From Planktotalea arctica (GTDB taxonomy: Bacteria; Pseudomonadota; Alphaproteobacteria; Rhodobacterales; Rhodobacteraceae): a stretch of 64,000 nucleotides of DNA. The translations under genes and the position numbers were made by a program. Under the pieces are notes generated by a model. That model was not told the origin of the DNA, did not search any database, and saw only the letters and a list, made by a program, of their open reading frames with translations. Shown in pieces: positions 14,134 to 59,554 of this stretch; position 1 is the first letter of the stretch; every line of letters starts with the position of its first letter. The stretch spans positions 1 through 64,000 of the forward strand of contig NZ_MUHR01000012.1 in assembly GCF_002105285.1 (NCBI RefSeq), in the 5' to 3' direction.

Positions 14134-14140
14134 ATTTGGT

Positions 14141-15558: not shown

Positions 15559-15566
15559 CGATTCTT

Positions 15567-32012: not shown

Positions 32013-32061
32013 CACAAATTTCCTGCCCGCAGCGTGTATCGCGCGCATCAAGCCAAGGCTG

Positions 32062-32084: not shown

Positions 32085-32087
32085 TCC

Positions 32088-32726
32088 ATGACGCTTTTTA
32101 TGCGCTTTGAACGCGCGATGATACGTTTTTCAGCAGGGCTTGCTCTGCTTGGTGGGGCTGGTTTGATCTTCGCCGTTTTGCTCACCTGCGTGAGCATTCT
32201 TTTCAAGCTCGCCGGTCGCCTGTTTGAGGCACTGTTTGGGGCGCAGTGGGTCGTGGAGACGCTGCCATGGTTGCGCGCTATTCTGGGCGAAGAAGAGTTG
32301 GTTTCTCTCGGCGTCGCCTTCGCGCTTTTTGCGGCGCTGCCTTGGGTGATGATCCAGCGTGGCCATATCAAGGTTAACCTGTTCGAACCTGTGTTCACTG
32401 CGCGTTTTAACAAGTTGCTCGATCTGCTGGGCGATCTGACGCTTGCGATCCTTGCCTATTTGATCATGACGCGGCAGTGGTTTTTGATCTTCAAAAAGGC
32501 ACGCGGCTCGAACGAACCTTTCGTGGATATCTTGCTGCAAGGCGATCTGGAGCAGATCGCGTCGCGGCTGCGAGATGCGCAGGAATCTCAAATCCTCGGA
32601 TTGCCGCTCTGGCCAACCTATATCATCGCCGAGCTTTGCGTTATCGCTTTCTTTGCTGTCGCCTGTTTTTGCGTTTTGCGCAGTGCGCGCGCCCTTGCTG
32701 CGCCCACCTCGGCAAGGGCGCAGTGA
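32088..32726 (+). CDS. TRAP transporter small permease (DctQ), N-methyl compound cluster
   Basis: Membrane protein of about 212 aa with four predicted helices and a long loop after the second, a DctQ variant with a larger periplasmic part. The motif LGVAFALFAALPWVMIQRGHIKVNLF matches the DctQ core in split form (GHIKVNLF). The ATG at 32088 (MTLFMRF) is preferred over one at 32034, because the latter would place the intergenic hairpin inside the gene. Its stop overlaps dctM by one base (TGATG). Confidence 0.82.
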   Translation: MTLFMRFERAMIRFSAGLALLGGAGLIFAVLLTCVSILFKLAGRLFEALFGAQWVVETLPWLRAILGEEELVSLGVAFALFAALPWVMIQRGHIKVNLFEPVFTARFNKLLDLLGDLTLAILAYLIMTRQWFLIFKKARGSNEPFVDILLQGDLEQIASRLRDAQESQILGLPLWPTYIIAELCVIAFFAVACFCVLRSARALAAPTSARAQ

Positions 32727-44931: not shown

Positions 44932-47078
44932 GTTGCGCTTCCGCTCAGGCGCAATCGCTTGGCATCACGGCGGGTTTGTAGCCAGCAGATCAGCCGAGCG
45001 CGCAGCCCTGCGCGCCACGTCTCGAATGGACTTGGATTATGCACCACATCCGCCTGATAAAACGACGGACAAAGCACCGCCGTATCAGCCACCTCGCCGC
45101 AATTTCCGCAGCCCACACAGCTTTGATCAATATGCGCCACGGGATCATCGCGCAGCGGATCATCCAGCGTTTTCAGGGACAAAGATGGGCAGCCAGACAG
45201 CCGCATACAGGCATGATCGCCCGTGCACACATCCGCATCTACGCCGAAACGCGGCACGTCCACGCGGCGACCCTCTTTGATCGCCTTGGCACGCAAAGGT
45301 TTTTCGCGGCGTTGTTTGTTCAGCATACACTCAGAACTCGCGATGATCACCTTGGGCCCGTCGTAGTCCGTCGTCAGCGCCTCGTGCAAAACCTCACGCA
45401 TTTTGCCAACGTCATAGGTGTTATCAATCTGGCGCACCCATTTCACGCCGACCCCTTCGAGGGCCTTGGAAATCGGATTGCCTGTCGCCTTGCTACCATT
45501 TTCAGCACGTGAGGACATCACATCCTGACCGCCCGTTGCGGCAGAATAGTAATTGTCCACGATCACGGCAACAGAGTCCGATTTGTTGAACACCATATTG
45601 CCAATGCTGCTGCTCAGCCCATTGTGCCAGAATCCGCCATCACCGAGCATCGAGATTGCACGCTTCTCGCCGCCCCCGTCAAAGGCCGCGTTCGCCGCAG
45701 GGCCTAGTCCATAGCCCATGGTCGCGCCGCCAATTTCGAACGGCGGCAGCGAGCCGAACAAGTGGCACCCGATATCGCCAGTGATCTGGTGCTTGCCCAG
45801 TTCTTCCTGTGTCAGTTTCATAGCTGCGAAAATCGGACGCTCGGGGCAGCCTGTGCAAAAACCCGGCGGGCGGATCGGGACGGTTTTGCTTAGATCAGGG
45901 ATCGCGGGCGCGTCCATGTTCGGCGCGCGCACATGCGCCGGCAACATGTCCGGTGCGGCCTGTTTCAAAAACGCCGTGACCCCGTCGAGCATGACAGCGC
46001 CTGTGTATTCGCCGGCCATGGGCAGCACGTCCTTGCCGTGCAATTTGACGCTGCGGCCTGCTTTATAGAGGAAGCTGCCAAGCTGTTGTTCGATGTGATC
46101 GGGCTGGCCTTCTTCTACGACCATTACATGATCTTTGCCGTCGCAGAACGTATCAAATTCGCTTTGCACAATGGGATAGGTGACGTTCAGCACATATAAA
46201 GGAATGTCCGAGTTACCATGAATATCAGCCAGCCCAAGGCGCTGAAGCGCGCGGATCACGCCGTTATACATGCCCCCTTGCAGCACTATGCCAAGCGGGG
46301 CGTCACGCGGGCCGAAGTGTTCGTTCAGCTTGTTTTCAACGATGAACCGTTCCGCATCCGGCCAGCGATTGTTGATCTTGTCCTGCTCGTGCACATAGCT
46401 CCACGGCGGCAGAACCACGCGTTTGAAATCGCTCTGCGGATTGGCGAGCGCGTCCCTAACGGTTAGCGGTGGACGCTGGTTATCGCGGGTCTCAAAGCTG
46501 CCCGTCACATGGCAGGCGCGAATGCGCACCATCAGCATCACAGGGGTGTTGCTCGCCTCGGACAGCTCGAACCCGTCCTTCACCGCCTTGGTGATCGAGG
46601 GCAGGTTGGGGCGGGGATCGAGCAGCCAGAACTGCGATTTCATCGCAAACCCGTGGCTGCGTTCTTGCATGATCGACGAGCCTTCGCCGTAATCCTCGCC
46701 GACGATAATCAGCGCGCCGCCGGTCACGCCTGACGAGCTCAGGTTGGCAATCGCATCGGAGGCGACATTGACCCCGACAGGTCCTTTGAACGTCACAGCG
46801 CCGCGAATGGGGTAGTGCACCGACGCGGCAAGCATTGCCGCTGCCGCCGCCTCTGACGCGTTGGCCTCAAAACGCACGCCAAGTTCGCCCATTAAATCCT
46901 CTGCATCGGCCAGAACATCCATAAGATGCGAAATCGGCGCGCCCTGATAGCCGCCGACATAGCCAACGCCGTTTTCCAGCAGCGCCTTGGTGATCGCCAG
47001 AATGCCCTCGCCCGTGAAGGTCTCGCCGTCGCCCTTGCGTAGATGCTCGACCTCGGCCTTGAATGATCTCTCTGCCAT
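44928..47078 (-). CDS. iorA: Indolepyruvate ferredoxin oxidoreductase subunit alpha
   Basis: Protein of 716 aa carrying the pyrimidine-binding and ThDP-binding domains of the enzyme (EASAAAAMLAASVHYP region near residue 75; ThDP motif MLGDGGFWHNGLSSS). The C-terminus has iron-sulfur cysteines: CVGCGNC with a later CP, and a second, altered set CTGDHACMRLSGCP. It oxidises indolepyruvate (and probably phenylpyruvate) to the acyl-CoA, giving electrons to ferredoxin. It follows a MarR gene by nine bases and is close to the putative indoleacetate operon. Confidence 0.9.
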   Translation of the reverse strand: MAERSFKAEVEHLRKGDGETFTGEGILAITKALLENGVGYVGGYQGAPISHLMDVLADAEDLMGELGVRFEANASEAAAAAMLAASVHYPIRGAVTFKGPVGVNVASDAIANLSSSGVTGGALIIVGEDYGEGSSIMQERSHGFAMKSQFWLLDPRPNLPSITKAVKDGFELSEASNTPVMLMVRIRACHVTGSFETRDNQRPPLTVRDALANPQSDFKRVVLPPWSYVHEQDKINNRWPDAERFIVENKLNEHFGPRDAPLGIVLQGGMYNGVIRALQRLGLADIHGNSDIPLYVLNVTYPIVQSEFDTFCDGKDHVMVVEEGQPDHIEQQLGSFLYKAGRSVKLHGKDVLPMAGEYTGAVMLDGVTAFLKQAAPDMLPAHVRAPNMDAPAIPDLSKTVPIRPPGFCTGCPERPIFAAMKLTQEELGKHQITGDIGCHLFGSLPPFEIGGATMGYGLGPAANAAFDGGGEKRAISMLGDGGFWHNGLSSSIGNMVFNKSDSVAVIVDNYYSAATGGQDVMSSRAENGSKATGNPISKALEGVGVKWVRQIDNTYDVGKMREVLHEALTTDYDGPKVIIASSECMLNKQRREKPLRAKAIKEGRRVDVPRFGVDADVCTGDHACMRLSGCPSLSLKTLDDPLRDDPVAHIDQSCVGCGNCGEVADTAVLCPSFYQADVVHNPSPFETWRAGLRARLICWLQTRRDAKRLRLSGSAT

Positions 47079-47087: not shown

Positions 47088-47549
47088 CTAAAAATCGTGC
47101 TTGCGAATGTTGCGCAGCATCTTTTGCAAAGTCACAGTCAACGCCTCGCGCTCGGCCTTCGATATACCTGTGAACATCGCCTCGCTCGCCTGCATCATGT
47201 GGGGCCAGAGGCGCGCATGGGCGTCGTGTCCCGCCTGCGTCAGCTTTACGCGAAAGGCGCGGCCATCACTTTTATCGGGCGCGCGTTGCACCAGCCCGTC
47301 TTGCTCTAATCCGTCAAGCGCGCGGCTGAGGGTGGATTGCTCGATTACTGCATAGACCGCCAATTCACGGATCAGCAAATCGTCTTGCACGCTCAGAACC
47401 GCCAGCGCGCGCAGTTTGGGTGTGCTCAGGCCAAGCGCGCTGATTTCCGTGCTGAGCGCTGAGTTGTAGCGCCCCATGATGCGGTTCATCAGGTAGGGCA
47501 CATAGTTTTCTAAGCCAAGCGCGCTCAGGTTTTCCGGATCAGATGTCAT
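47088..47549 (-). CDS. MarR-family regulator of the ior operon
   Basis: Regulator of 153 aa with a winged helix (LSTPKLRALAVLSVQDD, then VIEQSTLSRALDGLEQDGLV) and the wing sequence DGRAFRVKLT. The start at 47549 (MTSDPENL) is preferred because GGA lies just upstream; a start at 47567 would overlap its operator. It is the first gene of the operon with iorA and iorB and probably represses itself through the inverted repeat at 47557-47574. The effector is likely an aromatic acid. Confidence 0.87.
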   Translation of the reverse strand: MTSDPENLSALGLENYVPYLMNRIMGRYNSALSTEISALGLSTPKLRALAVLSVQDDLLIRELAVYAVIEQSTLSRALDGLEQDGLVQRAPDKSDGRAFRVKLTQAGHDAHARLWPHMMQASEAMFTGISKAEREALTVTLQKMLRNIRKHDF

Positions 47550-47556
47550 AAATCCG

Positions 47557-47574
47557 ATGTAACGCAACTTACAT
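47557..47574. promoter_or_regulatory. Inverted repeat, MarR operator of the ior operon
   Basis: ATGTAACGCAACTTACAT has perfect 6-bp arms and a 6-base centre. It ends eight bases before the MarR start and overlaps a possible -10 region downstream of TTGCAA on the minus strand. Confidence 0.6.
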
Positions 47575-47603: not shown

Positions 47604-48917
47604 CTACATTTGTGAGGGCAGATATAGCACTAGCATCGGGAACATCAGCAGCAAGATCAGGCGCACGATATCCATCAGCCAGAAGGGTGTTACACCGCGG
47701 AAAATCGTTCCCGTTGATACATCGCCCACCACCCCTTTCAAGATAAAGACATTCAATCCCACAGGCGGGGTGATCAGGCTGATTTCCACGACGACCACCA
47801 CGACGATACCGAACCAGACCGGATCAAAGCCAAGGCTTGTCACCAGCGGGAAAAAGATCGGAACAGTGAGCAAAAGCATCGACATGCTCTCGAAAATGCA
47901 GCCCAAAAGCAGGTAGATCAGGATGATCATGCCCATCACGACCCATGGCCCCAACTCCAGCGCGGTGACGAGTGCCAGCAATCCTTCGGGCAGGCCTGCA
48001 AGGTTGACGAAGTTCGAGAAAATCCAAGCGCCGATGAGGACTGCAAACAAGGATGCCGTGGTCAGTGTGGTTTCCTCCAGAACTTCACGCATCGCGCTCC
48101 AGTTGATGCCGCCGCGCGCGAGCGCGATCAGGAAGGCACCCGCTGCGCCCATGCCCGCCGCTTCGGTCGGGGAAAAGGCGAGGTGGAGCGGCCAGAAATC
48201 CAGGGCACCGTAAAGGCCGCCGATGACAAGGCCGAACAGCAGCAAAACCGCCCAGACATGGCTCAGCGCGCTTGCGCGCTCGCGCCAGTTTGTACGCGGA
48301 CCCGCAGGGCCGGATTCGGGGTTGCGCGCGACTGTGATGCGCACCGCGACGAGGTAGAGAAGGATGCCCAAGATACCGGGAATGATGCCCGCCACGAAAA
48401 GCTGGCCGATGGAGGTTTCCGTCAGCAATCCGTAAATCACCAGAATGACCGAGGGCGGGATCAGAATGCCCAGGGTTCCGCCCGCTGCGATCGAGGCGGT
48501 GGAAAGGCTGTCGGAATAGCCATATTTGCGCATCTCCGGCATCGCGACTTTTGACATGGTCGCCGCCGTGGCAAGGGACGATCCGCAGATTGCCGCAAAG
48601 CCGCCGCAGGCGACGATCGTCGCCATCGCGAGGCCGCCGCGAAAATGTCCGAGGAAGGCGTTGGAGACATTGTATAGCTCGCGGCTGATCCCGCCTTTGT
48701 TGACGAACAGGCCCATCAGAATGAACAGCGGGATCACCGAGAGGCCGTAATCCTGCGAGGTGTCGATCAGCAGGCGGCCCACCATGGAAATCGCAGCGCG
48801 ATAGCTGGTTTCATAGGCAAGCCCGATCATCCCCACGAGGCCCATCGCGAAAGCGATCGGAATGCGCAGCAGGACGAGTATAAAGACGGCGGCAAAGCCG
48901 ATTGCGGATTCAACCAT
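47604..48917 (-). CDS. TRAP transporter large permease (DctM), putative indoleacetate system
   Basis: Membrane protein of 437 aa with about 12 helices and DctM segments GGFAAICGSSLATAATMSKVA, GILIPPSVILVIYGL and SLITPPVGLNVFILKGV. It overlaps the small permease gene by eight bases. Its operon is preceded by a copy of the MarR operator that also controls the divergent dioxygenase operon, so the two are likely induced together. Confidence 0.9.
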   Translation of the reverse strand: MVESAIGFAAVFILVLLRIPIAFAMGLVGMIGLAYETSYRAAISMVGRLLIDTSQDYGLSVIPLFILMGLFVNKGGISRELYNVSNAFLGHFRGGLAMATIVACGGFAAICGSSLATAATMSKVAMPEMRKYGYSDSLSTASIAAGGTLGILIPPSVILVIYGLLTETSIGQLFVAGIIPGILGILLYLVAVRITVARNPESGPAGPRTNWRERASALSHVWAVLLLFGLVIGGLYGALDFWPLHLAFSPTEAAGMGAAGAFLIALARGGINWSAMREVLEETTLTTASLFAVLIGAWIFSNFVNLAGLPEGLLALVTALELGPWVVMGMIILIYLLLGCIFESMSMLLLTVPIFFPLVTSLGFDPVWFGIVVVVVVEISLITPPVGLNVFILKGVVGDVSTGTIFRGVTPFWLMDIVRLILLLMFPMLVLYLPSQM

Positions 48918-49416
48918 GATGAGGCCTCAACGTGTCTGGTGCGAAAATATGAAGCAAGCCGCGCCCCAACAGTGCGAACGCAGTGACATAGGTCATCGCT
49001 GCGATGAAATAGGCCACGTAAAAGGTCGGGATTTCGAGGTATTCGGTGACGTCGCCGTAGCCGCGCGCGCGCTCTGCCAGATCGACGATACGCCCTGCGG
49101 GCCACCACAGCATCGCGCCGCAGCCAAGGGCGACCACCGCGTCGCGCGCGCGTTCCAGCCCCCAGCGTTGAAACGGGCCGTCCAGCAGATCGACCGCGAT
49201 ATGACCGTTGCGCGCCGATAGAACGGGCAGGGCGGCGAAGACCACCAGCGCGATGCCCATGCGGATCAATTCGGTCGCAGCCTCGATCGGCGCGTTGAAG
49301 ATCGAGCGCATCAGCACGTCGGCAAAAGTCAGGCTCATCAACGCGAAAAGCGCGATGGAGGCGACGATCATCGGCACATGCGAGAGCGCCTTGAGAAAGC
49401 GGAATGCGGGCTGCAT
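48910..49416 (-). CDS. TRAP transporter small permease (DctQ), putative indoleacetate system
   Basis: Protein of 168 aa with four predicted helices and the DctQ core IRMGIALVVFAALPVLSARN followed by GHIAVDLL. The ATG at 49416 has AAGGA nine bases upstream. It is separated from the binding-protein gene by a GC-rich hairpin. Confidence 0.87.
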   Translation of the reverse strand: MQPAFRFLKALSHVPMIVASIALFALMSLTFADVLMRSIFNAPIEAATELIRMGIALVVFAALPVLSARNGHIAVDLLDGPFQRWGLERARDAVVALGCGAMLWWPAGRIVDLAERARGYGDVTEYLEIPTFYVAYFIAAMTYVTAFALLGRGLLHIFAPDTLRPHHG

Positions 49417-49449
49417 GGGGCGGCGTCCTTGCAAGGGGTGGATGTAGAA

Positions 49450-49501: not shown

Positions 49502-50521
49502 TTACATCGATGCGGCGGCCATTTCCTTGACCATCATCTCGTAGGCTGCTTGGCCGTCGACGCCCGCTTCGGTGATTTCCGCGATGATCTTGGCGCGTAC
49601 CTTATCCGCGATCGCAGCGAAGGCGGCCTGATCTTCTGCGCTGGCTTCAACAATAGTGTTGTCCGCCGTTTCCATCGTCAACTTGCGCGCGGCATCGTCG
49701 CTTTCATCCCAGACCGCGCCCATCATGCGCGATGCTGCTTCGCCAAAGACGGACTCGTCCAGCGCAGCCTGCACGTCGGCAGGCAGGCTGTCGAACTTCT
49801 CCTGGCTCATGATCACCGAGAAAGAGCCGCGATAAAGACCGCCGGGCATTTCATAGACGTTCTTGGCCACCTCGTTGAGCCTGAAGCCGATCCGCTCGCC
49901 AAGGTTCATCGCGACTGCGTCCGCCGCGCCGCTGTCCAGCGTTTCGTAGACTTTGGGCGCTGGGACCTGAATGCCCACAAGGCCAAGCTCTGCGCCCACA
50001 TCGGCGGAAACGCCGCCGCCGAGGCGCGTCTTGAGACCGTTCAGATCAGCCAGCGTCGTCACGGCCTTGTTCGAGTGGATTTGCCCCGGGCCGTGCGTCG
50101 TAAGGGCGATAACTTTGACGCCGCGATGCTCGTTCAGATCCTTCAGCATCGCGTCATGCACACGCCAATGCGCGACGGAGGCCGCTTCGGCGTTGCCTGT
50201 ATAGCCGGGAATTTCCACCAGCTTCGTGCCGACGAAGCGACCCGGCGTGTAGCCATGGAACAAGATTGCGATGTCCGCTGCGCCGTCCAGAACAAGGTCC
50301 ATTTGCGCGGGCGGAGAAGCAAGGCCGCTCTTGAGCTCGGTGGTGATCTTGCCGCCGCTCGCCTCTGCCATCATTTCGCTGAGCTGCGCGAACATGCCCG
50401 TGTTCACGGGATGTGTCGGCGGCAGCCAAGTGGAAATGGTGATGTTATCGGCGGCAAATGCGCTTGTGGCGGTGGTGATCGCTAGCGCTGCGCTGCTTAG
50501 AATTTTGGTGAATTTACTCAT
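49502..50521 (-). CDS. TRAP transporter substrate-binding protein (DctP), putative indoleacetate system
   Basis: Periplasmic binding protein of 339 aa with a Sec signal peptide (cleavage near TSAFAADN). The DctP carboxylate-binding Arg lies in the segment NGLKTRLGGGV. By its shared operator with the dioxygenase operon it should bring in the aromatic acid that the operon degrades; indole-3-acetate is proposed. The family takes up organic acids, which fits. Confidence 0.88.
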   Translation of the reverse strand: MSKFTKILSSAALAITTATSAFAADNITISTWLPPTHPVNTGMFAQLSEMMAEASGGKITTELKSGLASPPAQMDLVLDGAADIAILFHGYTPGRFVGTKLVEIPGYTGNAEAASVAHWRVHDAMLKDLNEHRGVKVIALTTHGPGQIHSNKAVTTLADLNGLKTRLGGGVSADVGAELGLVGIQVPAPKVYETLDSGAADAVAMNLGERIGFRLNEVAKNVYEMPGGLYRGSFSVIMSQEKFDSLPADVQAALDESVFGEAASRMMGAVWDESDDAARKLTMETADNTIVEASAEDQAAFAAIADKVRAKIIAEITEAGVDGQAAYEMMVKEMAAASM

Positions 50522-50586: not shown

Positions 50587-50602
50587 ATATGTATTTTCAT
50601 GC
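50587..50602. promoter_or_regulatory. MarR operator copy upstream of the TRAP operon
   Basis: On the minus strand this reads GCATGAAAATACATAT and matches 13 of 16 positions of the palindrome ATATGAAAATTCATAT found at 51254-51269. It is 66 bases upstream of the binding-protein start. The match suggests one regulator for both operons. Confidence 0.6.
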
Positions 50603-50651: not shown

Positions 50652-51140
50652 TTAATTGTCGCCCCCTTTCTGTTGTGCCAGCGTTTCCAGTAATCTGTGC
50701 AGGGCCTGCTTCAATGCAGTGCCGCCATCCTCGCCCAGTTGCGCCAGAAGTGCCTGCTCATGCGCGCGCGCTTCGGGAATCACCGATGTAATCAAGCTGC
50801 GTCCGGCATCGCTCAGGTAGATGCGCACGCGCCGCCCGTCGGATGGATCGTTTGCGCGCTGCACAAGGCCGCGCTCCTCCATTTGCACGATGATGCGGGT
50901 GAGGCGTGATTGCTCGACCAGAGCGATCTGCGCCAAATGCGTGATCATTGCGCCGTCCTGATCGTTCAGGCAGGCCAGCACGCGCCATTCGGGTACCCGA
51001 AGGCCTGCCTTTCGCACATGGGCATGAAACTGCGCGCTGGCAGCGTCGCTGGCCGCCGCGAGCAGATAGAGCAGGTAGTCATCGACAAAACCAGTCTTGC
51101 GCGGCTGGTCCGTTTGATCTGTGGTGTTGAAGTGTTTCAA
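50652..51140 (-). CDS. MarR-family regulator of the TRAP and dioxygenase operons
   Basis: Regulator of about 162 aa with a winged helix (VPEWRVLACLNDQDG, then IALVEQSRLTRIIVQMEERG) and the wing DGRRVRIYLSDAG. The proposed TTG start at 51140 follows AAGG; a longer frame to 51185 exists. It is placed between the two operons that carry related operator sequences. MarR proteins with this neighbourhood control indoleacetate catabolism (iad type) in Variovorax and Bradyrhizobium, where the auxin itself releases the repressor. Confidence 0.82.
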   Translation of the reverse strand: MKHFNTTDQTDQPRKTGFVDDYLLYLLAAASDAASAQFHAHVRKAGLRVPEWRVLACLNDQDGAMITHLAQIALVEQSRLTRIIVQMEERGLVQRANDPSDGRRVRIYLSDAGRSLITSVIPEARAHEQALLAQLGEDGGTALKQALHRLLETLAQQKGGDN

Positions 51141-51241
51141 ATGCTGCGCCTTGCATTGTTCAAAGCCATTACAAGACCACCACACGGCGCGCCGCGTTTA
51201 GAGTCAATGCCCGAGCGCAGTGCACATTGGATAAAAATACC

Positions 51242-51270
51242 TTGACCGATATTATATGAAAATTCATATT
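51242..51270 (+). promoter_or_regulatory. Promoter and MarR operator of the dioxygenase operon
   Basis: TTGACC (51242-51247) and CATATT (51265-51270) are 17 bases apart and match the -35 and -10 consensus at five and four positions. The palindrome ATATGAAAATTCATAT (51254-51269) fills the spacer and covers most of the -10 box, so bound MarR would block RNA polymerase. Confidence 0.65.
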
Positions 51271-51292
51271 GTTTACCAGTGGAGGAGCCAGC

Positions 51293-52237
51293 ATGCAAAA
51301 GATTACAGGCAAGGTTTTGGAGGTTACGGCGCTCAGTGATCGCATCACCGCGTTCGGGATTGGCGCTGTGGACGGCGCAGCCTTGCCGGATTTCGAGGCT
51401 GGCGCGCATGTGCAATTTGATCTGCCCGAGGGCGGTACGCGCTCTTATTCGCTGATCAGTTTCGATGCGCAAAACCGTGCGCCTGCACTCTATCGTATCG
51501 CCGTGCAGCGCGAGGACGGGGGCGCAGGCGGCTCGCGCTTCATGCACGGGCTCTTGGTGGGCGACACGCTCAGTTTCAGCGCTCCGAAAAATGATTTTCC
51601 TGTGGACATTTCGCAGCCGGCGGTGCTGCTCGCGGGGGGGATCGGGATCACGCCGATGATCTCCATGGCCAGCGCACTAAGCGCCGCTGATCAGCAAGTC
51701 TCGATGATTTTCGCAGGCCGAAGCGAGCACGACATGGCCTATACGCGCGACTTGCAAGCGCTGCTGGGTGCGCAGATGCGTTTGCACTTTGATGATCGCG
51801 ATGGCGCTCTGGATCTGGACGCGGTCATCGCCTCGCTTGATGCGGCCCAGCTCTATGTGTGCGGTCCGCGCGGGATGATAGATGGCGTGCGCGCCAAGGC
51901 CGAGGCGGCGGGCATCGCCCCCGGGCGTGTCCATTTCGAACTGTTCGAGGCGGTCGCCGCAGAGGCGGGCGATACGGCCTTCGACGTGCAGATCAACGAT
52001 GGCCGCGTGTTCACCATTCCGGCGGGTAAAACCATCATTGATGTTCTGGAAGAAAACGACGTGGATGTGATGTATGATTGCCAACGTGGCGATTGCGGCA
52101 TTTGCCAATGTGATGTTCTTGAGGGGGTGCCCGATCACCGCGACGTCGTTCTGAGCGAGGCGGAGCGCGCCTCAGGCGAGGTCATGCAAATCTGTGTCAG
52201 CCGTGCGAAATCCGCGCGTTTGATCTTGGATATTTAG
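51293..52237 (+). CDS. Rieske oxygenase reductase component (phthalate dioxygenase reductase type)
   Basis: Protein of 314 aa with a flavin-binding domain, an NAD-binding domain (VLLAGGIGITPMISMA) and a C-terminal plant-type 2Fe-2S ferredoxin domain. Cluster ligands are the cysteines of DCQRGDCGIC and a fourth in MQICVSRAKS. It moves electrons from NADH to the oxygenase encoded next. The start at 51293 has GGAGGAG at 51281-51287. No separate ferredoxin gene is present, so this is a two-component (reductase plus oxygenase) system. First gene of the operon. Confidence 0.9.
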   Translation: MQKITGKVLEVTALSDRITAFGIGAVDGAALPDFEAGAHVQFDLPEGGTRSYSLISFDAQNRAPALYRIAVQREDGGAGGSRFMHGLLVGDTLSFSAPKNDFPVDISQPAVLLAGGIGITPMISMASALSAADQQVSMIFAGRSEHDMAYTRDLQALLGAQMRLHFDDRDGALDLDAVIASLDAAQLYVCGPRGMIDGVRAKAEAAGIAPGRVHFELFEAVAAEAGDTAFDVQINDGRVFTIPAGKTIIDVLEENDVDVMYDCQRGDCGICQCDVLEGVPDHRDVVLSEAERASGEVMQICVSRAKSARLILDI

Positions 52238-52246
52238 GGGGACGAC

Positions 52247-53578
52247 ATGGGTATCTACACTGGCAATCCGAACGCTGCCGCCAATCTGGTACAGCCCCAT
52301 CAGGTCCACCGCGATGTTTATATCGATCAAGAGGTCTATGCGCTGGAAATGCGCCATGTCTTTACCAACGCCTGGGTCTTTGTCGGCCACGAAAGCCAGA
52401 CCCCCGCAAAAGGCGATTACTTCGCCACGCAGATCGGCGATCAACCGGTCATTCAAGTGCGCCACAAGGCGGATGAAATCCATGTGCTCTACAATCGCTG
52501 CCCTCATAAGGGCACCAAGATTGTCATTGATCGCCAAGGCAATACGGGTAAGTTTTTCCGCTGCCCTTATCACGCATGGTCGTTCAAAACCGATGGCTGC
52601 CTGCTCGCGATTCCGCTGAAAAAGGGTTATGAGGGCACTGGGCTTGAAAAGACCGATAGCGGCAAAGGCATGAAGGCCGTCGGCGCGGTCAAGAACTACC
52701 GTGGCTTCATCTTCGCGCGCCTTGCCGAAGCGGGGATCAGCTTCGAGGAGTTCTTTGGCGATAGCCTTTCCTCGCTCGACAACATGGTCGATCGCTCGCC
52801 CGAGGGTCGGCTCGAAGTAGTCGGCTCGCCCCTGCGCTATCTGCATCACTGCAACTGGAAAATGCTGGTGGAGAACCAGACGGACACCTGTCACCCTATG
52901 GTCGCCCACGAGTCCAGCGCGGGGACGGCGGTCAAACTCTATGAGGAATTGGACCTGCCAGAGGGCGCGCCAAAACCTGCTGCGATGGAAATTATCGCGC
53001 CTTTCATGAGCCCTTACGAGTTTTTCGAGGGCATGGGCATCCGCACATGGCCCAACGGGCATGGGCACACGGGCGTAAACCACTCGATCCACTCGGATTA
53101 TTCCGCCATTGCGGGCTACTTCGAGGCAATGAGCGCGGCCTATGGCGAAGAAAAGGCCAAAGAAATTCTAGGCGAAAACCGCCACAACACGGTCTATTTC
53201 CCCAATATCATGATCAAAGGCCCGATCCAGCAATTGCGCAATTTTATCCCGCTCGCTGCCGATAAAACCATCGTAGAAAGCTACATCTACCGCCTTGTGG
53301 GCGCGCCGGACGAGCTAACCGCGCGTACGGCGATGTATAACCGCATGATCAACGCGCCGACCTCTATCGTTGGCCATGATGATCTGGAAATGTACGAGCG
53401 CGCGCAGGAAGGTTTGCACGCGAATGGCATGGAATGGGTCAATATCCAGCGCCTACTGGAGGAGGACGAGGATTTCTCGCAAGAGGCGGTTCTGAATGGC
53501 ACGACAGAGCGACAAATGCGCAACCAGTTCGATGCGTGGCGCAAGTTCATGACCTATGGGGGGAGGGCAAGGACATGA
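52247..53578 (+). CDS. Aromatic ring-hydroxylating dioxygenase, alpha subunit
   Basis: Catalytic subunit of 443 aa. The Rieske cluster is held by Cys85/His87 (CPHKG) and Cys106/His109 (CPYHAW). The mononuclear iron site is Asp213, His216 and His221 (TDTCHPMVAH), with a further acidic ligand expected near residue 370. It forms a complex with the beta subunit. Within this operon the best proposed substrate is indole-3-acetate, attacked at C2-C3. Other aromatic acids are possible, since substrate range cannot be read from sequence alone. It ends in an ATGA overlap with the beta gene. Confidence 0.9.
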   Translation: MGIYTGNPNAAANLVQPHQVHRDVYIDQEVYALEMRHVFTNAWVFVGHESQTPAKGDYFATQIGDQPVIQVRHKADEIHVLYNRCPHKGTKIVIDRQGNTGKFFRCPYHAWSFKTDGCLLAIPLKKGYEGTGLEKTDSGKGMKAVGAVKNYRGFIFARLAEAGISFEEFFGDSLSSLDNMVDRSPEGRLEVVGSPLRYLHHCNWKMLVENQTDTCHPMVAHESSAGTAVKLYEELDLPEGAPKPAAMEIIAPFMSPYEFFEGMGIRTWPNGHGHTGVNHSIHSDYSAIAGYFEAMSAAYGEEKAKEILGENRHNTVYFPNIMIKGPIQQLRNFIPLAADKTIVESYIYRLVGAPDELTARTAMYNRMINAPTSIVGHDDLEMYERAQEGLHANGMEWVNIQRLLEEDEDFSQEAVLNGTTERQMRNQFDAWRKFMTYGGRART

Positions 53579-54048
53579 GTGTCTCCAAGGAGCAAATTAT
53601 CGACTTTATCTACGATGAAGCACGCATGCTCGATGAGGGGCGCTATAGCGAATGGCTCGCGCTCTGGCTGCCAGATGGGCACTATTGGATGCCGCTGGAA
53701 TACAAGCAAACCGACCCGATCAATCAGACCTCCTTGCTCTATGAAGATATGTTTATGCTCAAGTTGCGGGTCGAGCGCCTGAACGGTGCGCGCACGTTTT
53801 CGCAAAAGCCCAAAAGCCGCTGCCACCACGTGATCCAGCGCCCCTTCGTGGATGAAATGAACGGCGATACCTTTGTGACCAACACCTCCATGCACTACGT
53901 CGAAACGCGGCTGGACGAGCAACAATTGCTCGCCTTGACCGCGCGGCACGACCTTGCCTTGGTGGACGGCGCGCTGCGCATCGCGAACAAGCGCGTTGAT
54001 CTGCTGAACAGCGATGCCGCGTTTCGCAACATCCAGCTTTTGCCATGA
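53575..54048 (+). CDS. Aromatic ring-hydroxylating dioxygenase, beta subunit
   Basis: Protein of 157 aa of the SnoaL-like small-subunit family (LDEGRYSEWLALWLPDGHYW near the start; the segment SRCHHVI in the middle). It is structural and completes the alpha3-beta3 oxygenase. It overlaps the alpha gene and the ligase gene by ATGA each. Confidence 0.88.
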   Translation: MSVSKEQIIDFIYDEARMLDEGRYSEWLALWLPDGHYWMPLEYKQTDPINQTSLLYEDMFMLKLRVERLNGARTFSQKPKSRCHHVIQRPFVDEMNGDTFVTNTSMHYVETRLDEQQLLALTARHDLALVDGALRIANKRVDLLNSDAAFRNIQLLP

Positions 54049-55649
54049 TCACGGCGGACACCGTTTACGGCGCGTTCTGCGATAGTGCAGCGCAGTGGCC
54101 AGATCGCCCATTCCTGAACGTGATGCCTGAAACAGCGCAGATTTATGATATCGAGGCAGGTGAGATCAGCTACGCTAGGGCACTGGTGCAGGTTGGCTCC
54201 TACGTGGCGCAACTCAAATCGGCAGGCTATCGCAAAGGCCAGCGCGTCATGCTGCTGCTAGAGAACCGTCCCGACTATTTCCTCTGGTTTCTCGCGTGCA
54301 ATGCGATTGGAGTTTCAGTCGTTCCGATCAATCCCGATCTGCGCGCAGCAGAACTGTCCTACATGATCAACCATGCGGAACCCGTGCTTGCGATCTGCAT
54401 TGCACATCGCAGCAAAGAGCTGCGCAAGGCCGCCAAAAGTGCGGGTGTGGACATGGCCGTCATGGAGCCTCACGGCTCTCTTCCTCACGCCCAAACCGAC
54501 ATGTGCATCGCGGCGCGTGGTGGCGATCCAGAGGCGGCGCTTCTCTACACATCGGGCACCACAGGCCAGCCCAAAGGCTGCATCCTGACGAATGAATATT
54601 TCATCGAGGCAGGCCGCTGGTACAGCGCCGCAACGGGTATTTGCGCGATCACCACGGATCATGAACGGATGATCACCCCGCTCCCGATCTTCCACATGAA
54701 CGCCATGGCGTTTTCCTTCATGGCGATGGTTGCCGTGGGTGGCTGCCTCACAGCGCTGGACCGCTTCCATCCGAGCACATGGTGGGACAGCGTCAGACGA
54801 TCCAAGTCGACCTGCCTGCACTACCTAGGCGTGATGCCCTCCATGCTGATGGGGGCAGAGCCGAGTGCGCAAGATATAAACCATACGATACGGTTTGGTT
54901 TTGGTGCAGGCATTGACCCCAAGCTCCATGCCGCCTTCGAGCAGCGTTTCGGCTTTCCGCTTTCCGAGGGCTGGGCCATGACCGAAACAGGCGCAGGCGG
55001 CACGATCTGCGCCAACCGCGAGCCGCGTGTGATTGGCAAAAGCTCAATTGGTAGCCCTGATGAAAAAGTGCAGGCGCGCCTTGTGGATGACGCGGGCAAG
55101 GACAGTGATCACGGCGAGCTACTGGTGCGTGCCGCAGGTGCGGATCCGCGCAAAGGTTTCTTCGCGGGATACTTCAAAAATCAGGCTGCAACAGATGAAG
55201 CGTGGCAAGGCGGCTGGTTCCACACAGGTGATATCGTGCGCCGCGAAGCGGATGGCACCATGTATTTTGTGGATCGCAAAAAGAACGTGATCCGCCGCTC
55301 GGGCGAGAATATCGCAGCGGTCGAGGTCGAGAGTGCGTTGGCCAAGCATCCATCAATCAAAAGTGTCGCGGTCGCTGCTGTCCCTGATGGAATTCGCGGC
55401 GATGAAGTCTTTGCCTGTATCGTGCCAAAAGGCGCTGGAACCTCTGAAATGGCTATAGAAATTACGCAGTGGTGCTTGCGCCAGCTCGCTTACTACAAAG
55501 CACCGGGCTATATCGCATTCGTCGAAGAATTGCCCGTCACAGCCACGCAAAAACTGCAACGTGCGACGCTGAAAACACTTGCGAATACTTTGCTAGGCGA
55601 TCCCGCAACCATTGATTTGCGCCATCTCAAGAAGCGGATAAAAGCATGA
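54045..55649 (+). CDS. Acyl-CoA ligase (AMP-dependent synthetase)
   Basis: Enzyme of 534 aa in the ANL superfamily. The phosphate loop is YTSGTTGQPKGC, the later motifs are GWFHTGDIVRR and DRKKNVIRRSGENI, and the C-terminal catalytic Lys lies in TATQKLQRATLK. It activates a carboxylic acid with ATP and CoA. In the proposed pathway it would act on dioxindole-3-acetate so that the side chain can be cut off as acetyl-CoA. Coupled to the next gene by ATGA. Confidence 0.88.
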   Translation: MITADTVYGAFCDSAAQWPDRPFLNVMPETAQIYDIEAGEISYARALVQVGSYVAQLKSAGYRKGQRVMLLLENRPDYFLWFLACNAIGVSVVPINPDLRAAELSYMINHAEPVLAICIAHRSKELRKAAKSAGVDMAVMEPHGSLPHAQTDMCIAARGGDPEAALLYTSGTTGQPKGCILTNEYFIEAGRWYSAATGICAITTDHERMITPLPIFHMNAMAFSFMAMVAVGGCLTALDRFHPSTWWDSVRRSKSTCLHYLGVMPSMLMGAEPSAQDINHTIRFGFGAGIDPKLHAAFEQRFGFPLSEGWAMTETGAGGTICANREPRVIGKSSIGSPDEKVQARLVDDAGKDSDHGELLVRAAGADPRKGFFAGYFKNQAATDEAWQGGWFHTGDIVRREADGTMYFVDRKKNVIRRSGENIAAVEVESALAKHPSIKSVAVAAVPDGIRGDEVFACIVPKGAGTSEMAIEITQWCLRQLAYYKAPGYIAFVEELPVTATQKLQRATLKTLANTLLGDPATIDLRHLKKRIKA

Positions 55650-56815
55650 ATCGCCAATCCTACGAGGGGGTCGTTCTGACTGCGCCAGTCTCGGTTCCCT
55701 ACGTTCGCTACACGAATGAGACTGCCCATTGGTGGATCGCCAAAGCCTTGCGTGAAGCGCTCGGCAAGGTTCAGATGACGCCCCGAGAAATTGACGGTCT
55801 GTCCGTCTCCAGTTTCACCCTCGCGCCCGACACGCCTGTTGGCCTCACCCAGCATCTTGGCATTTCGCCGCGTTGGCTCGACACGGTTCCCATGGGCGGG
55901 GCCTGCGGCGTGATCGCCATGCGCCGCGCTGCACGTGCGATCCAAGCGGGCGATGTGGACGCCGTCGCTTGTGTGTCCGGCGACACCAACCGCATCGACA
56001 GCTTTCGCAACTTGTTGAGCGCCTTTTCGCGTTTCGCAATGGACGCGACATTCCCCTATGGTTTCGGGGGGCCCAACGCCAGTTTCGCACTTTTGCAAGA
56101 CGCCTATATGGCCGAATTCGGCGCTACGCGGATGGACTTTGGGCGCATCGCCGTGGCGCAGCGTGCCAATGCCCTGCGCAACCCGCAAGCTGTTATGAAA
56201 AAGCCCCTAAGTCTTGATCAATACATGGATGCGCGGATGATTTCCGATCCCATCGGTCTGTTCGATTGCGTTATGCCCTGCGCCGGCGCTGAGGCTTTTG
56301 TGATGATGCGAGAGGCAGCGGCGATTGCCAAAGGCCTGCCCTTTGCGCGCATTGCCAGCACGATCGAGCGCACCAATGCGTTTCCCGATGATCCGATCCA
56401 GCTGCGCGGCGGCTGGGCGGTGGATATCGACGATCTTTGGTCAATGGCCGGTCATGGCCCAGAAGCGATTGATCTGCTGCAAACCTATGACGACTATCCT
56501 GTAATCTGCATGATGCAATTCGAGGACCTCGGCTTTTGTGCCAAAGGCGAGGGAGCGGAATTTGTGCAAAAACATGACCTGACCATCGGGGGGGATTTCC
56601 CCCATAACACGTCGGGCGGGCAGCTCTCGGTCGGGCAAGCGGGCGCGGCGGGTGGTTATCTTGGCCTTGTCGAGGCGATCCGTCAAGTGACGGGCACAGC
56701 GAGTGTAACGCAGGTTGACGCGGCGCGCCGCGCGTTGGTGTCGGGCTTCGGGGTGATCAATTATGATCGCGGGTTATGTTCGTCCGCCGCGATCATCACG
56801 GGGGCAAGCGCATGA
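55646..56815 (+). CDS. Thiolase-like protein, candidate retro-aldolase subunit
   Basis: Protein of 389 aa with the thiolase fold of the SCP-x/lipid-transfer group. The first nucleophile position is kept (Cys87 in GGACGVIA) and a late Cys is present (RGLCSSAA), but the GHP histidine block reads SVGQAGAAGG, so the catalytic His is missing. Thiolase-like proteins that pair with DUF35 proteins and lack thiolase residues, such as Ltp2 with ChsH2 in steroid degradation, cut beta-hydroxyacyl-CoA by retro-aldol reaction. The DUF35 partner is encoded next, with an ATGA overlap. Retro-aldol cleavage of dioxindole-acetyl-CoA would give isatin and acetyl-CoA. Confidence 0.8.
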   Translation: MNRQSYEGVVLTAPVSVPYVRYTNETAHWWIAKALREALGKVQMTPREIDGLSVSSFTLAPDTPVGLTQHLGISPRWLDTVPMGGACGVIAMRRAARAIQAGDVDAVACVSGDTNRIDSFRNLLSAFSRFAMDATFPYGFGGPNASFALLQDAYMAEFGATRMDFGRIAVAQRANALRNPQAVMKKPLSLDQYMDARMISDPIGLFDCVMPCAGAEAFVMMREAAAIAKGLPFARIASTIERTNAFPDDPIQLRGGWAVDIDDLWSMAGHGPEAIDLLQTYDDYPVICMMQFEDLGFCAKGEGAEFVQKHDLTIGGDFPHNTSGGQLSVGQAGAAGGYLGLVEAIRQVTGTASVTQVDAARRALVSGFGVINYDRGLCSSAAIITGASA

Positions 56816-58062
56816 CAAACGCACTGCCGTTCCCGCCAAAGAAAGACCCGCAAAAGCGCACGCTCGTACCGACCTTGCCACCCATGGCGCGTTCACGTGC
56901 ATCGCTGGGGTTGGGCGTTATGGCCGCGCAAGGGCGCTTTGGCTTGCAGATCTGCGCTGCGTGCGCTGCCGTGCAATATCCACCGCGCGATGCCTGCCAC
57001 AAATGCCTAAGCGATGATTTGCCCTGGCAAGACGTTGACCCGAGCGGCACAATTCTAGCGGAAACAACCATTCGTGTCTCGCCCGAGCCATATTTTCGTG
57101 AACGCATGCCATGGCGCATGGGATCGGTAAGGCTGGATGCAGGACCTACGCTGAATTGCCATTTGCACGGCGAAGTGGGTCGCGGCGATAGCGTTAAAAT
57201 GGCGCTGAAACTGGATAAGGCAGGGCAGGGCGTGTTGATCGCGCTGCCGCTTAAAGGAAGCGAACACATGCAAGACGATCCAACGCTGCGCGCCATGTCC
57301 TGTGATCCCAAGCGACGACGTATCCTGATCAGTAATGCGCGCGCGCCGATGGCTTTGGCGCTAACGCATGCGCTGTTGAACGCGGGGGCGAGCCATGTGT
57401 TTCTGGGCGAACCCGAAGCATGGCTTAGCTGGCCAGAGCGCAAAGCGTTTGAGGGAATGGAAAACGTGTCTATCCTGCCGCTTGATGTGACGGACACATC
57501 TTCTATCGCCAAGCTAAGCGCAGAAATTGGTGGTAAGGTCGATATTCTGATCAACACCGCCACCTATACACGCCCCGGTGGAATTGTGGATAATGACACA
57601 AGTTTCGCGCGCGAAACATTTGAGGTGAACACGCTGGGGTTGATGCGCCTTGCGCAAGGCTTTGGCCCAGGCATGGCCGCCCGTGTGCAAGACGGCATCA
57701 ATTCTGCGGTCGCGTTCGTGAATATCCTCTCGGTGCAAGCGCTCATGCCAGACCCGAGCTACGGCGCGTTTGGTGCTTCGCAAGCGGCTGCGCGCTCGAT
57801 CTCGCAAACTATGCGGGCTGAGTTTCGTGGATCTGGCCTTAGGGTTATGAACCTCTACATCGGCCCGATCGAAGACGATCCGTGGTTCCAACCGCTGCCA
57901 CCGCCTAAAGTGACACCAAACGCCATCGCGCGCGCTTGTGTGCAAGGTCTGGTCGACGGGCTTGAAGAGGTCACATGCGGCGACATAGCACGCGACGTCT
58001 ATGCGCGTTGGCAAACGGATGCGCTGCTTTTGGAGCGGGAAATCACGGGGGGAGGATCATGA
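56812..58062 (+). CDS. DUF35 zinc-ribbon/OB-fold protein fused to a degenerate SDR domain
   Basis: Protein of 416 aa in two parts. Residues 1-150 hold a rubredoxin-like zinc ribbon (Cys48, Cys51, Cys62, Cys65) and an OB fold, the usual partner of thiolase-like enzymes. Residues about 168-416 follow the SDR fold, but the nucleotide loop has no TGxxxGxG (it reads ISNARAPMALAL), the catalytic Tyr is Phe320 and the Lys is Gln324 (FGASQ); only Ser307 remains. The SDR half is thus probably not an enzyme. It may be a scaffold for the thiolase-like subunit. Coupled on both sides by ATGA. Confidence 0.8.
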   Translation: MTNALPFPPKKDPQKRTLVPTLPPMARSRASLGLGVMAAQGRFGLQICAACAAVQYPPRDACHKCLSDDLPWQDVDPSGTILAETTIRVSPEPYFRERMPWRMGSVRLDAGPTLNCHLHGEVGRGDSVKMALKLDKAGQGVLIALPLKGSEHMQDDPTLRAMSCDPKRRRILISNARAPMALALTHALLNAGASHVFLGEPEAWLSWPERKAFEGMENVSILPLDVTDTSSIAKLSAEIGGKVDILINTATYTRPGGIVDNDTSFARETFEVNTLGLMRLAQGFGPGMAARVQDGINSAVAFVNILSVQALMPDPSYGAFGASQAAARSISQTMRAEFRGSGLRVMNLYIGPIEDDPWFQPLPPPKVTPNAIARACVQGLVDGLEEVTCGDIARDVYARWQTDALLLEREITGGGS

Positions 58063-58832
58063 GCGATGCAATTGTAAGTATGGCAGAGGCACTGGCAAGC
58101 GGGCAGGCGAAGATCGTCGATCTGACCCACACGCTCGATCCTGATTTTCCGGTGATTATTCTGCCGCCAGAGTTTGGCCAATGCGCACGCTTTCGCATGG
58201 AAGAGGTAAGCGCATATGATCATCGCGGCCCTGCGTGGAAGTGGCATAATATCACGCTGAATGAACACACAGGCACGCATTTCGATGCGCCAAGCCATTG
58301 GGTGTCGGGCAAGGATGTCCCGAATGGCGCGGTGGACGAAATCGACCCGCGCGTGTTCGTTGGACCTGTCGTGGTGATTGATTGCTCGGACGGCGCCGCG
58401 CGCGATGCTGACTTTGAATTGACGCCCGAGATCATCGAGGATTGGGAAGCCGAGCACGGGGCAATTCCTGCGGATGCTTGGGTTTTGATGCGCACGGATT
58501 GGTCGAAGAAAAGCGGTGCGGCATATTTGAATATGGCCGAAGATGGACCCCATTCGCCCGGTCCAACGCCTGCGGCAATCGAGTTGCTGCTCAAGCGTGA
58601 TATTCGCGGATTTGGCACGGAAACCGTAGGCACGGACGCAGGGCAAGGCGCGCATTATGTGCCGCCCTATCCTGCGCATTACCTGCTGCACGGGGCGGGC
58701 AAATTCGGGCTGCAATGCTTGCGCAACTTGGATCAACTGCCTGCAACAGGCGCTTTGCTGATCGCGCCGCCGCTCAAGATTAAAGGCGGCACAGGCAGTC
58801 CTTTGCGTGTGCTGGCATTGGTGACCGCATGA
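58059..58832 (+). CDS. Cyclase-family metal hydrolase, candidate isatin hydrolase
   Basis: Protein of 257 aa of the PF04199 family (kynurenine formamidase, isatin hydrolase and relatives). The metal site is His70-x3-His74-x-Asp76 with His80 (HTGTHFDAPSHW), the same spacing as the Mn ligands of Labrenzia isatin hydrolase. The start at 58059 has GGAGG upstream and overlaps the fusion gene stop. In the proposed pathway it opens the isatin ring to isatinate, leading to anthranilate. Kynurenine formamidase activity is an alternative, but no other kyn gene is near. Confidence 0.82.
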   Translation: MSDAIVSMAEALASGQAKIVDLTHTLDPDFPVIILPPEFGQCARFRMEEVSAYDHRGPAWKWHNITLNEHTGTHFDAPSHWVSGKDVPNGAVDEIDPRVFVGPVVVIDCSDGAARDADFELTPEIIEDWEAEHGAIPADAWVLMRTDWSKKSGAAYLNMAEDGPHSPGPTPAAIELLLKRDIRGFGTETVGTDAGQGAHYVPPYPAHYLLHGAGKFGLQCLRNLDQLPATGALLIAPPLKIKGGTGSPLRVLALVTA

Positions 58833-59554
58833 GCACGCATACAGCGATCATCACGGGCGGCAGCAAAGGTATTGGCGCGGACCTTGGGCGGCGCTTGATT
58901 GAAAAGGGTTACACCGTGGTGTCCCTGTCGCGCGGTGCGCCAGAGTGGTCAGACGCCAAATTGGTGCATGTGGAAGTGGACCTGCTGGATGCAGGCGCAA
59001 CCGAGCAAGCAGCGGCAGAGATTGTAGCGCAGCATGAGGTCTCGCACCTGATCCACAATGCTGGAATGATCTGGCCGAATTTGGTGGAGGACGCCAAGCC
59101 GAGCGATCTGGCGGGGCTGACGCAACTGCATCTTGGTTGCGCGCTTACTCTGCTTCAGGCTTGCTTGCCAAATATGAAGCAAAAGCAATTTGGCCGTGTC
59201 CTGTTCAACGGCTCGCGCGCGGCGCTTGGCGTGCCCACGCGCACGGCCTATTCGGCGACAAAAGCGGGCATCATCGGCATGGCGCGCACTTGGGCGCTGG
59301 AACTGGCGCAGCATGGAATCACGGTAAACGTGGTCGCGCCGGGGCCAGTGCAAACGGATAACTTCTGGGGTATCATCGAGAAGGGGAGCGCGCGCGAGGA
59401 GGAACTCGCCAAGCGCATTCCCGTGGGCCGCCTTGGCACGGTGCGCGATATTTCCAACGCATTTCTCTATTTTTGCGATCCCGAGAACGGGTTCGTGACG
59501 GGCCAGACACTATATGTGTGCGGCGGCGGTAGCGTTGGTACATTGGCTCTTTAG
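58829..59554 (+). CDS. Short-chain dehydrogenase, candidate dihydrodiol dehydrogenase
   Basis: Complete SDR of 241 aa with cofactor motif TGGSKGIG (residues 9-16), catalytic serine in NGSRAALG, and YSATK. It has every residue that the preceding fusion lacks. Last gene of the coupled operon (ATGA overlap). It could oxidise the 2-hydroxy group of the indole-2,3-dihydrodiol formed by the dioxygenase to give dioxindole-3-acetate. This step is inferred from chemistry. Confidence 0.85.
   Translation: MSTHTAIITGGSKGIGADLGRRLIEKGYTVVSLSRGAPEWSDAKLVHVEVDLLDAGATEQAAAEIVAQHEVSHLIHNAGMIWPNLVEDAKPSDLAGLTQLHLGCALTLLQACLPNMKQKQFGRVLFNGSRAALGVPTRTAYSATKAGIIGMARTWALELAQHGITVNVVAPGPVQTDNFWGIIEKGSAREEELAKRIPVGRLGTVRDISNAFLYFCDPENGFVTGQTLYVCGGGSVGTLAL

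Follow-up and report, generated by a model that had tools for sequence, protein, structure and literature searches.

How do marine bacteria remove the side chain of indole-3-acetate (IAA), and what becomes of the ring afterwards? The question is raised by a 64,000-nucleotide stretch of the Planktotalea arctica genome (contig NZ_MUHR01000012.1, positions 1 to 64,000; the window), whose + strand holds eight intact, contiguous open reading frames (ORFs) at 51293-59554, identified as iadCDEFGHIJ. By breaking down auxin, bacteria shape root growth; in the sea, algae and bacteria exchange the hormone. Judged by sequence, the operon belongs to the iad (indole-3-acetate degradation) type and comes from a marine roseobacter relative. 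We consider it very probable that the locus as a whole serves a MarR-controlled route in which IAA, imported by a tripartite ATP-independent periplasmic (TRAP) transporter, is converted through a retro-aldol cleavage to isatin and then to isatinate.

The initial annotation had described eight genes on one strand, seven of them chained by ATGA overlaps, and had named their domains. All ORFs proved intact, six such overlaps link iadD to iadJ behind a 9-bp gap between iadC and iadD, and a Pfam scan recovered every named domain across the eight proteins, resolving the DUF35 fusion, IadH, into a zinc ribbon, an OB fold and a C-terminal short-chain dehydrogenase/reductase (SDR) domain. For iadC, a TTG-initiated ORF opens at 51269, and the ATG at 51293, preceded by GGAGGAG, is the better start. 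The annotated span captured the + strand genes and left out the flank to their left, all on the - strand: iadB and iadA, a MarR gene, the three genes of a TRAP transporter, and a second MarR gene adjoining iadC (Table 1).

Three proteins tie the operon to IAA. The best PDB matches of the oxygenase alpha subunit IadD are the Variovorax IAA oxygenase structures 9o71 and 7yls/8h2t (E 2e-168, the next sequence following at 2e-39); those of IadI are isatin hydrolases, with LaIHA at E 6e-147; and that of the MarR adjoining iadC is Ruegeria pomeroyi 3CDH (E 2.5e-45), then 7kfo. A locus from another class (L198) encodes an IadD nearly identical to 7yls (E 1e-294) and has iadABCDEFGHIJ side by side, C-J being ordered as in the window. 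We assign the locus to iad because of these matches and the gene content and order of L198. The window also has an IadDE-type Rieske oxygenase with its IadC reductase, the contiguous iadCDEFGHIJ order, a MarR with predicted IAA-binding residues, and, past the TRAP genes on the - strand, iadA and iadB, described as exclusive markers of iad-like operons in PMC9613470. The initial proposal of a route from IAA to isatinate is thus borne out, at the level of sequence, by the best matches of IadD, IadI and MarR, and neither oxygenase nor cyclase matched a different aromatic pathway best.

The cyclase extends this link to a characterised enzyme. IadI of Roseibium aggregatum IAM 12614 is the crystallised LaIHA (251/251 residues) and is encoded in a locus that holds iadC-J plus orthologous TRAP genes; the characterised isatin hydrolase is therefore an iad gene. 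IadI of the window shares 205 of 250 residues with LaIHA and has the isatin hydrolase metal motif HxG[T/A]HxDxPxH as HTGTHFDAPSH.

Relatives were compared as the best 80 loci of at least 570 IadD relatives, drawn from 597 pattern matches in species genomes. All eight iadC-J genes are present in 56 of the 80, and 53 keep the C-J order on one strand; several of the 24 loci with an incomplete set end at contig edges. With the order kept in 53 of these best 80 loci, the gene set lies far beyond chance. The nearest loci among them belong to Sulfitobacter, Planktotalea and other Rhodobacteraceae (IadD identity 89-92%). Within the family of the window, IadD was found in 16 of 198 sampled genomes at E 1e-150, its own genome included.

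Much of the chemistry is established. The functions of IadCDE, IadJ and IadI and the binding of IAA by MarR have been shown by others in relatives; iadC-J functions in V. paradoxus were assigned through mutants and metabolites in a preprint (PMC12633357) that already proposes CoA activation before side-chain removal. The first IadCDE product is disputed, oxIAA (PMC10374108) versus a probable epoxide and its hydrate (PMC12633357), and marine R. pomeroyi is among the strains reported to degrade IAA (PMC9613470). The operon kind and IAA degradation by a marine iad strain are therefore already published, and the novelty claimed initially for a CoA-dependent retro-aldol step and a marine, TRAP-coupled version does not extend to operon type, CoA activation or marine degradation; the residue-based case for a retro-aldol step survives. 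What may be new is this retro-aldolase reading of IadG/IadH, a palindrome common to the TRAP genes and iadC, and a proposal that IadAB acts on isatinate.

In the pathway that we favour, the TRAP transporter would import IAA, which would free the iadC-adjoining MarR from a palindrome controlling the TRAP genes and iadC-J. IadCDE would oxygenate IAA at C2-C3, IadJ would oxidise the hydrated product to dioxindole-3-acetate, and IadF would convert this to its CoA ester. With the DUF35 half of IadH holding it in place, IadG would cleave the ester by retro-aldol reaction into isatin and acetyl-CoA, Tyr281 of IadG removing the C3-OH proton and Asp283 probably serving as the acid towards the acetyl-CoA enolate; IadI would then hydrolyse isatin to isatinate. 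Of these steps, it is the retro-aldol cleavage, the TRAP cargo and the common operator that we infer here.

The residues of IadG argue against a thiolase. Its best PDB relatives are 9myr (E 2e-46), 4u4e, a chain named thiolase (5e-41), and Ltp2 6ok1 (1e-35); the entry code 9myr, for CtSal, occurs in PMC12329534. Our IadG set comprised 76 sequences, 69 aligned at 50% identity or more and seven more distant, and leaves out two at 37-38% identity (L205, L206). In 76/76, the thiolase nucleophile position is Gly85, YDDY (Y281-D282-D283-Y284) replaces the thiolase HDCF, and Gln326 and Gln331 are invariant, the equivalents of CtSal Gln347 and Gln352, with Gln331 sitting at the thiolase His. Gly85, Gln331 and Asp283 thus stand where a degradative or SCP2-type ketothiolase has its Cys, His and acid/base Cys, and we rejected IadG as a thiolase since these catalytic residues are missing throughout the set. 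What IadG shares with the Sal/Ltp2 aldolases is the catalytic Tyr of YDxF/Y together with the loss of the nucleophile Cys.

IadH shows the same split between kept and lost functions. We aligned 81 rows, eight of which repeat a locus, and counted them as 73 distinct sequences. The four zinc cysteines are invariant (73/73), and the DUF35 part matches the DUF35 partners of both aldolases, as expected of a putative zinc-ribbon partner. The C-terminal half lacks the TGxxxGxG and YxxxK motifs of an active classical SDR: the first Gly is Asp or Asn (66/66 and 7/7), the Tyr position is Phe in 57 of the 81 rows and Tyr in 11, and the Lys position is mostly Gln or Asn, with Lys in 2/81 rows, fitting L198 and its repeat. 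Tyr and Lys never occur together (0/73), and an active SDR was rejected for IadH because the pair is missing in 73/73. By contrast, at least 70 of 75 IadJ sequences keep the TGxxxGIG and YxAxKAG forms. Because the thiolase residues of IadG and the SDR pair of IadH are absent while the IadJ motifs are intact, the best reading is that IadG/IadH would form a CoA-dependent retro-aldolase turning dioxindole-3-acetyl-CoA into isatin and acetyl-CoA, the step that had been suggested from gene content. We found no account of IAA breakdown with a retro-aldol step or a DUF35 protein in the literature searched, subscription journals and supplements lying outside that search; one genome paper there contains both TRAP and IAA terms.

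Several residues weigh against this assignment. The second catalytic residue of Sal/Ltp2 (Sal Cys304, Ltp2 Tyr344) is replaced by Asp283 and Gln331, respectively. CtSal requires both Tyr302 and Cys304 of its YDCY and has been argued to be incapable of thiolysis, and its C304A/S/H variants are dead (PMC12329534), while IadG has Asp at this place. The CtSal oxyanion residue Gln161 corresponds to Pro143 in 69/69 IadG sequences, and Gly391 to position 370, which is Met, Val or Leu in 68/69 and gapped in one. The acid and the oxyanion hole of IadG are thus not proven.

The fate of isatinate turns on IadAB. IadB scores 658 bits against NCBIfam PRK08312 (cut-off 348). IadA reaches 270.8 bits against IOR_alpha (TIGR03336, indolepyruvate ferredoxin oxidoreductase), below the curated cut-off of 650.9, and no IadA relatives were found in PDB at E 0.001. 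We put it as an even call that IadAB is an isatinate (2-aminophenylglyoxylate):acceptor oxidoreductase making 2-aminobenzoyl-CoA directly, as suggested by three genomic contexts and by induction in Bradyrhizobium, where iorB and iotA rise 7.6- and 30.7-fold with IAA (PMC3788728).

The first context is a second contig of the same genome, C11, where one - strand run of isatin hydrolase, an FAD oxidase-like gene, MarR, an iadA paralogue (88%) and iadB converges on a 2-aminobenzoyl-CoA-type pathway; no IAA genes were found in this operon. In the own genome, two genes share 58% and 56% identity with a gene annotated as salicylyl-CoA 5-hydroxylase/oxidoreductase in an iad-type locus of Azospirillum; by their FAD monooxygenase and FMN reductase domains, we take them to encode putative 2-aminobenzoyl-CoA monooxygenase/reductases. 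The anthranilate dioxygenase model TIGR03228, this one model, gave no match above its cut-off in the genome. The second context is the Azospirillum locus itself: iadABCDEF and iadJ with a 2-aminobenzoyl-CoA-type pathway and, nearby, neither 2-aminobenzoate-CoA ligase nor iadGHI. In the third (G202), iadF, G, J, D, E, I, A and B adjoin the pathway, with no ligase match on the whole 44.7-kb contig. In a further locus (L009), where iad genes and iadAB also occur with the pathway, a ligase is present. PMC6221969 discusses isatin hydrolase and the 2-aminobenzoyl-CoA route as two distinct open questions in indole breakdown, and no direct step from isatinate to 2-aminobenzoyl-CoA was found there or in the wider literature, searched as above.

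The C11 cluster as a whole (2839-18005) contains the second isatin hydrolase, the iadA/iadB paralogues, MarR and two FAD oxidase-like genes. Its pathway ligase ORF is shortened (389 versus 538 aa) and the SDR gene is broken across reading frames, so that this copy looks decayed; in a further copy, on contig C45, both reading frames are full-length. We rejected C11 as a clean case of iadAB replacing the CoA ligase on account of the shortened ligase and split SDR.

A broader survey favours isatinate less. Across 55 iadA neighbourhoods of the class (stretches of up to 20 kb, the own genome's two excluded), 14 encode an IadA of at least 60% identity, and six of these 14 have isatin hydrolase and/or iad genes. 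Against an isatinate substrate stand the eight close neighbourhoods with neither; the other 41, in which isatin hydrolase or iad genes at 40% identity or more occur in 0/41; the transporter and receptor families that Pfam assigns to 8 of 11 neighbours at four of the eight; and the presence of iadA within reach at just 14 of the 80 iadD loci. Anthranilate is moreover restored by Variovorax iadC-K2 without iadAB (PMC12633357). Among the 41, two from a single genus lie next to the 2-aminobenzoyl-CoA-type pathway, and tryptophan dioxygenase and kynureninase intervene in the one scanned.

The strongest competitor, tentative but serious, is that iadAB encodes a true indolepyruvate oxidoreductase feeding tryptophan-derived indolepyruvate into the route as indole-3-acetyl-CoA. 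This accords with its annotation, with the tryptophan dioxygenase and kynureninase genes beside a 58% IadAB homologue, and with the anthranilate yield of the Variovorax genes lacking iadAB; it fits poorly with the IadA score so far under the family cut-off, and with iadA paralogues lying in an operon with isatin hydrolase in the own genome and near isatin hydrolase in others. That 58% IadAB-like pair, in L151 (8773-16148) and L208, sits by tryptophan 2,3-dioxygenase, kynureninase and methyltransferase genes and also adjoins the 2-aminobenzoyl-CoA-type pathway, with no ligase match.

Less probable, and in our view unlikely, is the published assignment of the side-chain step, made by annotation in PMC12633357, with IadG as a ketothiolase and IadH as an alcohol dehydrogenase that remove the side chain reductively to dioxindole. 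In that source, Variovorax iadG and iadH mutants yield less anthranilate, and it is dioxindole (C8H7NO2), not isatin, that builds up in the iadI mutant, which counts against a retro-aldol product; we take this dioxindole to be isatin that may have been reduced afterwards. However, neither protein retains the catalytic residues that the assignment needs, and on chemical reasoning C3 bears a tertiary hydroxyl and cannot become the beta-ketone required for thiolysis.

The retro-aldol route would be fed and controlled from the left flank. Ser50 and Arg68 of the iadC-adjoining MarR correspond to S28 and R46, which hold the IAA carboxylate in MarR_73; Arg is found in 64/64 aligned sequences and Ser in 61/64, three being gapped. 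Both residues are Ala in 7krh, presumably the S28A R46A mutant of MarR_73 described in PMC9613470. The R. pomeroyi MarR 3CDH binds IAA with a dissociation constant of 0.237 uM (PMC9613470).

For the operator, the evidence differs by site. TATGAA-N2-TTCATA, at up to two mismatches, precedes iadC in 62 of 75 related loci (59/3750 random pieces; 47/75 at one mismatch) and TRAP genes of other kinds in 14/28 (11/1400), against random pieces unmatched in base composition, a point that detracts from these counts. Also less favourable to a shared operator, it precedes the orthologous TRAP genes in only 20/31 loci (31/1550 random; 7/31 at one mismatch), both window sites are recovered by construction since the pattern was derived from them, and the 3.79-Mb genome holds one further match with one mismatch allowed, as many as the reversed-pattern control. 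Because two or more matches to a shorter pattern form arise in 12 of 100 window shuffles, the pair of window palindromes is by itself modest evidence. From the conservation pattern we infer that an operator common to the TRAP genes and iadC-J is present.

Orthologous TRAP genes (solute binder at least 55%, large permease at least 70% identical) accompany 31 of the 80 loci, another TRAP transporter 27, and neither 22, in stretches of up to 21 kb. The predicted structure of the solute-binding protein (pLDDT 92.4) is closest to 4p56, then to aromatic-acid binders whose ligands include coumarate, cinnamate, caffeate and 4-hydroxyphenylacetate, and IAA is its probable cargo. An ABC binding protein of Variovorax binds IAA (PMC10374108). 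That the operon instead targets another indole acid, such as indole-3-lactate, indole-3-pyruvate or halogenated IAA, with IAA incidental, could appeal to the binder being assigned only to the aromatic-acid class and to the indolepyruvate oxidoreductase annotation of a relative's iadAB, yet is very improbable given the matches of the oxygenase, the regulator and the hydrolase to proteins of the IAA pathway, the conserved MarR IAA residues and the degradation of IAA by iad-bearing R. pomeroyi. Elsewhere in the window (28464-34072), another TRAP transporter adjoins a putative sarcosine/dimethylglycine dehydrogenase-like gene.

Incomplete relatives were also seen. Five loci (L030, L031, L032, L067, L068) have iadC, D, E and J, with F, G, H and I not found in the available stretch; side-chain removal is therefore encoded elsewhere or done differently there. 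Two Sulfitobacter loci (L012, L016) have MarR, TRAP, iadD and iadE, the remaining iad genes not being found within 21 kb. A Pantoea agglomerans plasmid from Eucalyptus (L085, 13051-20095) carries iadCDE-like genes (IadD 54%), after which come genes for an FAD oxidoreductase, an amidase and an aromatic amino acid transporter; iadF-J were not found in its 29 kb. Conversely, three loci of one genus with 7-9 Mb genomes (L199, L203, L204) have iadGHI, with iadCDE not found in the available stretch, and a different oxygenase may start the pathway there; L203 also encodes a protein resembling 2-aminobenzoyl-CoA monooxygenase/reductase (55%).

Work to engineer the iad pathway into root bacteria is under way (PMC12633357), which gives the assignment of its steps practical weight; in that source we found no assignment for iadAB. 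The locus and its relatives supply a putative retro-aldol mechanism with named residues, open to test, a candidate IAA transporter with a common operator, and a candidate enzyme following isatinate. If IadAB acts on isatinate, the full pathway would end in a CoA ester with no ATP spent on anthranilate, and culture anthranilate would be overflow. If true, IadAB and a retro-aldolase made of a pseudo-thiolase and a pseudo-SDR would revise the pathway's two unassigned halves.

Table 1. The iad locus and its left flank in the window.
Feature	Position	Strand	Basis or remark
iadB, 2-oxoacid:acceptor oxidoreductase beta-type subunit, 511 aa	43396..44931	-	PRK08312; 43% to Variovorax-type iadB
iadA, 2-oxoacid:acceptor oxidoreductase alpha-type subunit, 716 aa; candidate isatinate oxidoreductase	44928..47078	-	63% to Variovorax-type iadA
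MarR-family regulator, 9 bp before iadA	47088..47567	-	Pfam MarR; best PDB 3cjn E 1.6e-50
TRAP large permease (DctM type)	47604..48917	-	88% to same-place Sulfitobacter indolifex TRAP large permease
TRAP small permease	48910..49434	-	69% to same-place annotated Sulfitobacter indolifex small permease
TRAP solute-binding protein, predicted to bind aromatic acids	49502..50521	-	
Operator-like palindrome CATGAAAATACATA ahead of TRAP genes	50588..50601	-	pattern built from both window sites
iadR-type MarR	50652..51185	-	best PDB 3cdh E 2.5e-45, then 7kfo
Operator-like palindrome TATGAAAATTCATA ahead of iadC	51255..51268	+	pattern built from both window sites
iadC, oxygenase reductase (NAD-binding + 2Fe-2S), ATG start	51293..52237	+	Pfam PF00175, PF00111
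iadD, Rieske oxygenase alpha	52247..53578	+	PDB 9o71/7yls Variovorax IadD, E 2e-168
iadE, oxygenase beta	53575..54048	+	PF00866
iadF, AMP-forming acyl-CoA ligase	54045..55649	+	PF00501, PF13193
iadG, thiolase-like, read as retro-aldolase	55646..56815	+	PDB 9myr E 2e-46, 6ok1 E 1e-35
iadH, DUF35 (C4 zinc ribbon + OB) fused to degenerate SDR domain; probable IadG partner	56812..58062	+	
iadI, isatin hydrolase	58059..58832	+	PDB 5nnb LaIHA E 6e-147; motif HTGTHFDAPSH
iadJ, motif-intact SDR, taken as the diol dehydrogenase yielding dioxindole-3-acetate	58829..59554	+	role from PMC12633357

Among known iad loci, that of Variovorax paradoxus CL14/CL014 (PMC9613470, PMC10374108, PMC12633357) shares the iadCDEFGHIJ order, a divergent MarR repressor and iadAB with the window. 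Alignment to a Variovorax-type locus gave 47-60% identity for each C-J protein, 63% for IadA and 43% for IadB. Variovorax has the ABC binding proteins IadK2/K3, of which IadK2 is non-essential (PMC12633357), whereas the window has a TRAP transporter beside the operon; and its iadAB sits ahead of iadC, whereas that of the window lies on the other strand past the TRAP genes. The Ruegeria pomeroyi DSS-3 megaplasmid is likewise marine, with iadC-J in the same order and an IadD 64% identical to that of the window; unlike in the window, annotation and tblastn found no TRAP genes or iadAB in 29 kb. The Labrenzia (Roseibium) aggregata enzyme, isatin hydrolase A (PDB 5NNA/5NNB; PMC6117287), is 82% identical to the window IadI, with the metal motif retained and 18% of residues different, a comparison of overall identity and metal motif.

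The steroid aldolases CtSal/CtShy-DUF35 and TcLtp2/ChsH2-DUF35 (PMC12329534; 9MYR, 6OK1) resemble IadG/IadH in their thiolase-like sequence, with Gly replacing the nucleophile Cys, in the catalytic Tyr of YDxY, in a DUF35 zinc-ribbon partner and in a beta-hydroxy acid CoA ester as the proposed substrate. They differ in that IadG has Asp283 for Cys304 and other oxyanion-hole residues, that the DUF35 of IadH is fused to a degenerate SDR and theirs is found with MaoC, and that the substrate is an indole rather than a steroid. We do not file IadG as a Sal/Ltp2 enzyme because the second catalytic residue is replaced; by its residues, IadG/IadH is nonetheless predicted to work like these aldolases.

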